Source: an uncultured Olsenella sp. (GTDB lineage Bacteria; Actinomycetota; Coriobacteriia; Coriobacteriales; Atopobiaceae). From it: a stretch of DNA of 50,598 nt. The translations under genes were made by a program, and so were the position numbers. Position 1 is the stretch's first letter, and each line of letters starts with the position of its first letter. This document shows positions 3,704 to 27,947 of this stretch, piece by piece. Location of the stretch: assembly GCA_900314575.1 (NCBI GenBank), contig OMVS01000005.1:1-50598 (forward strand). Reading direction: 5' to 3'. The notes under the pieces are model-generated. The model made no database searches. It saw nothing but the letters and a program-made list of their open reading frames with translations, and was not told where the DNA came from.

Positions 3704-4261
3704 ATGGGCGTGCGCGTGGACGGGGCCGCGAGGGGGCTGGCGTTCGAGGACGCGGGCGACGTTGCGCTGCCGGACGGCGGCGAGCGCTACGAGCTCGCCC
3801 GCAGGCTCGTAGCCGAGGCTACCCGGGCAGGCGTCACGCTGGCGAGCGCCGAGTCCTGCACGGGAGGGCTCGTCTCTGCGGCCGTGACCGACGTGCCTGG
3901 CTCCTCCACGCCCTGGCGCGGCGGCGTCGTCTCCTACGCGATCCCCGTGAAGCGCGCGGTGCTGGGCGTCCCCGACGAGGTGCTGGACGCCCCGGGCGTC
4001 GGCGCCGTCTCGAGCGAGTGCGCCGCGGCCATGTGCGAGGGCGCCCGGAGGGTGCTCGGGGCCGACGTGGCCGTCTCCACGACGGGCATCGCCGGTCCGA
4101 GAGGGGCCGAGGAGGGCAAGCCCGTGGGCACCGTCTGGTTCGGCGTGACCTCGGACGCGGGCACCCACACGGAGGCGCACCTCCTCACCGGGGATCGCGA
4201 CGAGGTCAGGCGGAAGGCGGTCGCGATCGCCCTCGGCCTCCTGCTCTCCCGCGTCGGCTAG
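3704..4261 (+). CDS. cinA: CinA C-terminal-type nicotinamide-nucleotide amidohydrolase
   Basis: 185 residues. Matches the stand-alone CinA C-terminal (PncC) domain, which deamidates nicotinamide mononucleotide to nicotinic acid mononucleotide for NAD recycling. Family motifs: 'TLASAESCTGGLVSAAVTDVPG', the 'GGVVSYA' strand, 'AVSSECAAAMCEGAR' and 'VSTTGIAGPRG'. The N-terminal MoCF/ADP-ribose pyrophosphatase domain of full CinA is absent; that is common. An in-frame ATG at 3686 exists, but the ATG at 3704 lies directly after an AGGAGG site and the pgsA stop, so it is preferred. In many bacteria this gene precedes recA, as here. Confidence 0.9.
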   Translation: MGVRVDGAARGLAFEDAGDVALPDGGERYELARRLVAEATRAGVTLASAESCTGGLVSAAVTDVPGSSTPWRGGVVSYAIPVKRAVLGVPDEVLDAPGVGAVSSECAAAMCEGARRVLGADVAVSTTGIAGPRGAEEGKPVGTVWFGVTSDAGTHTEAHLLTGDRDEVRRKAVAIALGLLLSRVG

Positions 4262-4347
4262 GACGCCCCGAGGAGGGCTCCGTGCCAGGTCGGGAACGCC
4301 ACGGCGCGTCGCCGCAGCCCAGGGGCGCCAGCCGCCCGAAACCGCCA

Positions 4348-26783: not shown

Positions 26784-27232
26784 GTCAGGTTCGCCTTCCG
26801 TCTGCGTTTGCGGCGGCGCTCCGTGCGTCCGGCGTACCGCTCACTGATTGCGTACATGTTAAGGCTGGCGGGGGCCGGGATGCCCCGAACGGCCGAGGCG
26901 CTGAGAGGCCCTCTAAGGCCCCCGCGCCAGACCAATGGACTGCGGGACCTGCGGGACCTTCTCCCCTCTGCGACGGTAGCGTGAGCAAATCGCTTTTATC
27001 CGACAAAAAGTCGAAAAATTGTTCGGTAAAAGCGATTTGCCCACCCAGCAAAAGACGTTTTCCGGACAATTTTGGAGAAAATTGTTCGGAAAAAGCGATT
27101 TGCGTGGTGTCAGTACCGCAATTGATGTGCGCCGGCGCGGGCCGGGGCCGGCCCGAGGGCTATCCTTACGAGGTGGATTGGGGGCAGGCGCCGACGGCTC
27201 GCCGGCGCCGTGTCAAGTGAGGGGGCAGGTCC
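26784..27232. other. 449-base divergent gap with an AT-rich hairpin element
   Basis: Promoters of the nucleoside hydrolase (minus) and the TMEM175-like gene (plus) must lie here. The central 26985-27103 is the hairpin element described separately. Open frames through it have no ribosome site and are driven by the repeats. Confidence 0.6.
26985..27103. repeat. AT-rich element: three copies of one 22-bp motif in two long hairpins
   Basis: The core AAAAGCGATTTGC occurs at 27028-27040 and 27091-27103 on plus and at 26985-26997 on minus. Full 22-base copies span 26985-27006 (inverted), 27019-27040 and 27082-27103; the latter two differ at one base. Copies 1 and 2 form a stem of about 20 bp. A further stem pairs 27058-27073 with 27078-27093: 16 bp, one G-U pair, loop GGAG. 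The AT content is unlike the flanking DNA. Function unknown: operator, RNA structure or a small mobile repeat. Confidence 0.85.
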
Positions 27233-27947
27233 ATGGACAAGGGCCGCATGGAGGCGTTCAGCGACGGCGTCATCGCGATCATCATAACCGTCATGGTTCT
27301 CGGCATCGGGGCGCCCGTGGGCGACGGGCTCTCGGACCTCGCCGGCGTCTTCCCGGCGCTCGGCGCCTACGCGCTGAGCTTCGTCGGGGTGGGCACCTAC
27401 TTGGAACAACCACCACCACCTGCTCAAGCTGGTGAGGCGCGTCGACGGCCGCATGCTCTGGCTCAACCTCGGCTTCCTCTTCGTGCTCTCGCTCGTGCCG
27501 CTCGCGACGGAGTGGATGGAGAAGAGCGTCTTCTCCGCAATTCCCACGACCACCTACGTCGTGCTCAACGTGCTGCTCTCCCTCTCCTACATGGCGCTGG
27601 AGAGCGACATCCACCACAGCATCGCGAGCGGCTGCTCGCGCAAGGCGCCGGAGGAGGTCTTGAGGCGCTCGACCATGAAGGAGAGGCTCACCCTGGTCGC
27701 GGAGGCGGCGGCCTTCGTCCTCTCGCTGGCGCTCCCCTCCTCGCACCTCGCGCTCGTGCCGCTGGCCCTGGGATATGCGCTCTGGATCGTGCCGGACATG
27801 CGCATCGTGCACCTGCTCGACTTCCTCGCGGATGCGGACGACGCCGCAGGCGTCGAAGTCGCGGAGGAGCCCGGCGCGAGCGCCGCAGGTGCGGACGCCG
27901 CCGCTGGTGACCTCGGGTCGGAGAGGGGCGGCGGCGCCGCGGCGTGA
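27233..27947 (+). pseudogene. TMEM175/DUF1211-like potassium channel gene with a 1-base frameshift
   Basis: The first frame begins 'MDKGRMEAFSDGVIAIIITV' (F-S-D signature of TMEM175 channels) and runs well to 'YALSFVGVGTY'; the second frame resumes at 'VRRVDGRMLWLNLGFLF'. Removing one T of the TT at 27401-27402 restores 'YWNNHHHLLKLVRRVDG', the conserved family segment, and one frame of 237 residues with about six membrane helices and an Ala/Gly/Glu-rich tail. As sequenced, the first frame would give a truncated protein. It is either a real pseudogene or a base-call error. GGGGGCAGG site before the ATG. Confidence 0.85.

Follow-up and report, generated by a model that had tools for sequence, protein, structure and literature searches.

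A probable MITE-like palindromic intergenic repeat of four alternating units in an uncultured Olsenella

ERIC, RUP and Correia/NEMIS are small bacterial MITE-like repeats (PMC2229807, PMC10969869). In the Caulobacter CIR, two long inverted repeats give two arms that are joined by a linker (PMC2229807), and the REP/BIME repeats, which occur with RAYT transposases, are made of palindromic units with a GTAG (or CGTC) tag at one end (PMC3733652, PMC2817692). How palindromic repeats that carry no enzyme of their own move is called unresolved in the literature (PMC2229807). The element described here was found in contig C67 of the draft assembly (2.125 Mb in 144 contigs, 96% complete) of an uncultured Olsenella sp., the analysed stretch of 50,598 nucleotides being referred to as the window. 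Named relatives of the contig (Olsenella, Parafannyhessea, Olegusella and uncultured rumen Atopobiaceae) assign it to the Atopobiaceae. The element probably belongs to a MITE-like family of palindromic intergenic repeats that is species-specific and non-autonomous.

Layout, copies and distribution

The element is composed of four alternating units of about 22 nt (Table 1). In the 119-column alignment of the copies unit 1 is forward and unit 2 reverse, a 7-nt spacer follows, and unit 3 is again forward and unit 4 reverse, so that the units pair up into two 56-bp palindromes joined via the 7 nt. The core is bounded by 13-bp inverted repeats (GCAAATCGCTTTT and AAAAGCGATTTGC), and each of its halves also starts and stops with the terminal repeat sequence. 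AAAAGCGATTTGC occurs with zero mismatches at 26985 (-), 27028 (+) and 27091 (+), and these three sites are the sole matches within the window even at up to two mismatches, with 0.31 expected. The initial annotation had recorded three copies of a 22-bp motif, all of which lie where it had put them; a fourth, GCAAAAGACGTTTTCCGGACAA, was overlooked because this unit 3 is decayed in the window. The alternation that it had described is borne out by the four-unit alignment. Both of its hairpins are present as well, the first over the whole first palindrome and the second at 27059-27094, with a 16-bp stem that includes one G-T pair and with the loop GGAG, and the composition is as foreign as it had been said to be (GC 0.40 against about 0.68 in the surroundings). 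The neighbouring TMEM175-family gene (27233-27947, with PF06736 on the first 67 codons) consists of two different frames meeting near 27410-27435, probably because the gene is disrupted or the sequence contains an error.

Table 1. Features of the element and its flanks, in window coordinates
Feature	Position	Strand	Basis or remark
Whole repeat, a nested palindrome of 119 bp; C67 copy, one of ten	26985..27103	-	minus strand bears the G-rich spacer, the family orientation
Outer terminal inverted repeat GCAAATCGCTTTT	26985..26997	+	motif search and alignment; outer 13 columns 96-99% majority residue
Outer terminal inverted repeat, opposite end	27091..27103	-	motif search, alignment, column conservation
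First 56-bp palindrome, units 1 and 2	26985..27040	.	folding
7-nt C/G-rich spacer; central-arm loop in the cloverleaf	27041..27047	.	alignment columns 57-63
Second 56-bp palindrome, units 3 and 4, 16-bp stem with GGAG loop	27048..27103	.	folding
Decayed unit GCAAAAGACGTTTTCCGGACAA	27048..27069	+	alignment; inner arm pairs 10/13
Flanking R module; best-kept piece CTTAGAGGGCCTCTCAGCGCCTCG at 26894-26917	26888..26984	-	only beside cores
Short AT-leaning L module with TTGATG at 27122-27127	27104..27130	+	by eye; common to about seven copies

A genome-wide search with the core 13-mer, as the initial annotation had proposed, returned 21 exact and 7 one-mismatch matches, 28/28 of them inside ten dispersed elements; the reversed pattern, used as a control, gave no exact and one single-mismatch match. 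Solo units were not encountered, all core matches in the genome belonging to the ten tetrameric elements. The copies lie on C37, C41, C45, C52, C54, C67, C114, C134 (a and b) and C141, and all but one of 118 bp are 119 bp long. As for the intergenic placement that had been put forward for checking, 10/10 copies sit in gaps between genes, which are divergent in three cases, convergent in two and tandem in five. The neighbouring genes are unrelated (nucleoside hydrolase, gltD, Asp23, Dps, MFS, SBF symporter, Hsp20-like); since C134 shares 83 bp with C133 at their ends, copy C134b is placed upstream of a C133 gene that, going by its sequence, is putatively Hsp20-like. The chance or decayed remnant that a unique and unconserved sequence would have implied is at odds with ten copies in the genome.

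The family was found in none of the 395 genomes searched within the order, which include two of the same genus. The exact terminal-repeat pattern had zero matches in the GTDB genomes and IMG/VR, and no family member was found in plasmid and phage collections, the species itself being possibly absent from all these collections. No Rfam covariance model matched above its gathering score over the element. At 828 bp, the spacer between rpmB and asp23 is longer here than in most of 22 relatives (median 359 bp, range 200-1080 bp), a length that by itself is weak evidence of insertion; the core sequence is present in 0/22 of these relatives. In both same-genus genomes the orthologues of the locus in the window sit on separate contigs.

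Two weak model hits were rejected. One, in a genome of another genus (G124, E 1.5e-5), is a different repeat, with ACACAAATCGCCTTTTGTGT palindromes about 143 bp apart that are present in three species of that genus, and the CAAATCGCYTTTT that it has in common with the element may be due to chance; the other (G107) looks like GC-rich coding-type sequence. Palindromes of the form ACACAAATCGCCTTTTGTGTATGNGGCGTACACAAAAGGCGATTTGTGT, in pairs about 143 bp apart that enclose a conserved middle, were seen in three species of another Atopobiaceae genus (L056 4697-4888, also L058-L062), and a related-looking arrangement has another core, ACCCAAATCC (L063 3858-4039). The other genus also has long perfect palindromes, with GGGACA/TGTCCC or CAATTGGGGAC as their basis (L059 3584-3664 and L061 1408-1479), which are separate repeat types. 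Near a contig end of a same-genus genome there is a pair of strong hairpins, beginning GAGCTACCCCACAACCG and spanning about 120 bp overall (L093 36-165), that is similar to the element in plan and unrelated in sequence.

Conservation and fold

Over the ten copies conservation is 96-99% in the outer 13 columns at either end, 82-85% in the inner units, which repeat the terminal sequence, and 57-78% in the arms and loops. Judged from the alignment, this gradient fits ends that would be recognised by an enzyme better than it fits four equal binding sites. The copy in the window folds much more stably than shuffled versions of it, with z values of -8.3 as DNA and -8.9 as RNA. Three pairings were compared over the copies: a cloverleaf, in which the ends are paired together and three internal arms are formed, two separate hairpins, and one long hairpin. 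The cloverleaf pairs 81.4% of the cells and shows 20 pairs with two-sided changes, its covariation score being reached by 0/500 shuffles. The two-hairpin form pairs 76.0%, with 12 such pairs and a score that 20/500 shuffles reach, and the one long hairpin pairs 75.7%. Covariation thus favours the cloverleaf over the two-hairpin form, without proving it, as two copies keep their pairing in a wholly different inner arm. In C37 and C52, from which the advantage of the cloverleaf mainly comes, the inner AAATCGC units are lost, and both inner units are swapped for unrelated sequences that still complement each other (11 and 10 pairs out of 13). The energies computed copy by copy gave no consistent preference for the cloverleaf, several copies, that of the window included, being more stable as two hairpins.

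Flanking modules and orientation of the core

Most copies carry on one side an R module of about 100 bp, in which a GC-rich hairpin is followed by CTAGATGTCATGG and CTTAGAGGGCTCTCAGCGGCTCG; C67 and C37 show weak identity to it. Away from the cores the module was not found in the genome or the family beyond short, chance-level matches, and its interpretation as an independent repeat was rejected, since it is present only beside the cores. The L tail was recognised in other copies as it was in the window (Table 1). C134b and C141 match at 94% over core and R module, and at 62% over their left flanks, which is the random level (61 +/- 3.5). The likeness of the cores, combined with flanks at random level, indicates a putative duplication into unrelated sites.

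One core orientation is common to most copies. The R modules of C54 and C134b occupy the same side and are 92% identical, and the cores of these two copies are 93% identical when that of C54 is inverted versus 73% when it is read forward; against C141 the R module is 90% identical and the core 87% inverted versus 70% forward. By these identities the core of C54 appears clearly inverted relative to flanks common to two other copies. C37 may be a second, weaker case (69% forward and 76% inverted against C45). Misassembly is an unlikely source of the inversion because the exact shared ends, of 13-17 bp, are probably shorter than the assembly word lengths. The C54 element and its modules are bracketed by a 23-bp direct repeat, CGCGCCCAAGCCCGCGCCGGCCG, at -195 and +170 (L013, around 3827-4332), which could represent the ends of a larger insertion.

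Explanations and comparison with known repeats

The features described place the element most likely among the MITE-like palindromic intergenic repeats, formal MITE membership being unproven. With MITEs it has in common the short, strongly conserved 13-bp terminal inverted repeats of all ten copies, and it is small, dispersed, intergenic, multi-copy and non-coding. It is filed as MITE-like and not as a proven MITE because two other features were looked for and not found: no direct repeat adjoins the core of any copy, the only one being the distant repeat around C54, and the assembled genome, a 96% complete draft, contains no larger element that shares these ends. The parent element might have disappeared, might be missing from the assembly or might belong to a type whose ends differ. 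As to mechanism, the outer repeats would be recognised by a transposase or recombinase provided in trans, the core would extrude as hairpins or as a cloverleaf once single-stranded, and it would flip through recombination or template switching between the outer inverted repeats. The small palindromic mobile repeat was one of three options in the initial annotation, and it gains support from the dispersed intergenic copies, their fixed length, the conserved ends and the relatives without a homologue.

A different emphasis, which seems unlikely, would assign the element to a class of DNA repeats, tetrameric and able to form a cloverleaf, that spread as folded single strands, flip their core and are mobilised by a putative host enzyme; viral hairpin telomeres also flip, and have been likened here to core flipping between the terminal repeats of such a folded intermediate. 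The strictly kept unit sequence and 119-bp spacing could also be accounted for if the four units were predicted binding sites of a protein, in a local operator or in a dispersed chromosome-organising site, and having ten sites spread over the genome would be in keeping with a protein of the nucleoid or of segregation. However, a binding element is improbable: the neighbouring genes lack a common function, two copies lie between convergent genes, C37 and C52 are without the inner AAATCGC units, both same-genus genomes are without the family, unlike conserved chromosomal sites, and neither the flips of the core nor a co-travelling R module would be expected. The multi-site operator of the initial annotation is accordingly disfavoured.

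Its third option, a structured RNA, here an untranslated-region regulator or small RNA dispersed over several transcripts, is equally doubtful. The fold is very stable, the cloverleaf covaries and the wobble pairs lean slightly to one strand (19 vs 11), yet this bias is small; no Rfam family matched, neither a promoter-like nor a terminator-like site was found near the C67 element, the contexts include divergent and convergent gaps, and the inverted core of C54 would place the opposite strand in the same transcript. Least probable of all is a substrate of site-specific inversion or recombination acting as a phase-variable switch. Perfect short inverted repeats and a core inversion that is clear between homologous loci speak for such a switch, but the C67 region has no promoter-like site, the downstream genes belong to no common class, integron-like gene cassettes are missing and a single orientation is common to most copies. 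The hairpins should not be taken for an operator or a riboswitch.

The MITE-like repeat proposed here resembles ERIC, RUP and Correia/NEMIS, which are likewise about 100-200 bp long, AT-rich, mostly intergenic and multi-copy, with terminal inverted repeats, stable stem-loops and no protein. It differs from them in its unrelated sequence, in having four alternating units instead of one end-to-end stem-loop, and in occurring in only ten copies in one host species, without detected target duplication or TA ends. The two-arm form with a linker recalls the Caulobacter CIR; however, CIR has a GANTC motif and no terminal inverted repeats, whereas the ends of the element are strongly conserved and the cloverleaf is the better supported pairing. 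Palindromic units alternate in orientation between genes in REP/BIME as well, but the element is a fixed tetrameric unit without solo units. Assignment to REP/RAYT was rejected, the conserved GTAG (or CGTC) tetranucleotide being absent from the alignment and the REP-type Y1 transposase (PF01797) from the genome, and so were integron attC sites, no conserved core of the GTTRRRY form being present in the alignment and the neighbours being ordinary chromosomal genes. The literature search found no named repeat of this kind for this group, and the element adds an undescribed repeat family to the little-studied Atopobiaceae. Its inverted core and its covarying, replaced inner arms offer testable handles on the movement of palindromic repeats that lack an enzyme. 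Set beside the known systems, the repeat family is new and the sort of element already known, and what is unusual is the four-unit fold and the flippable core.
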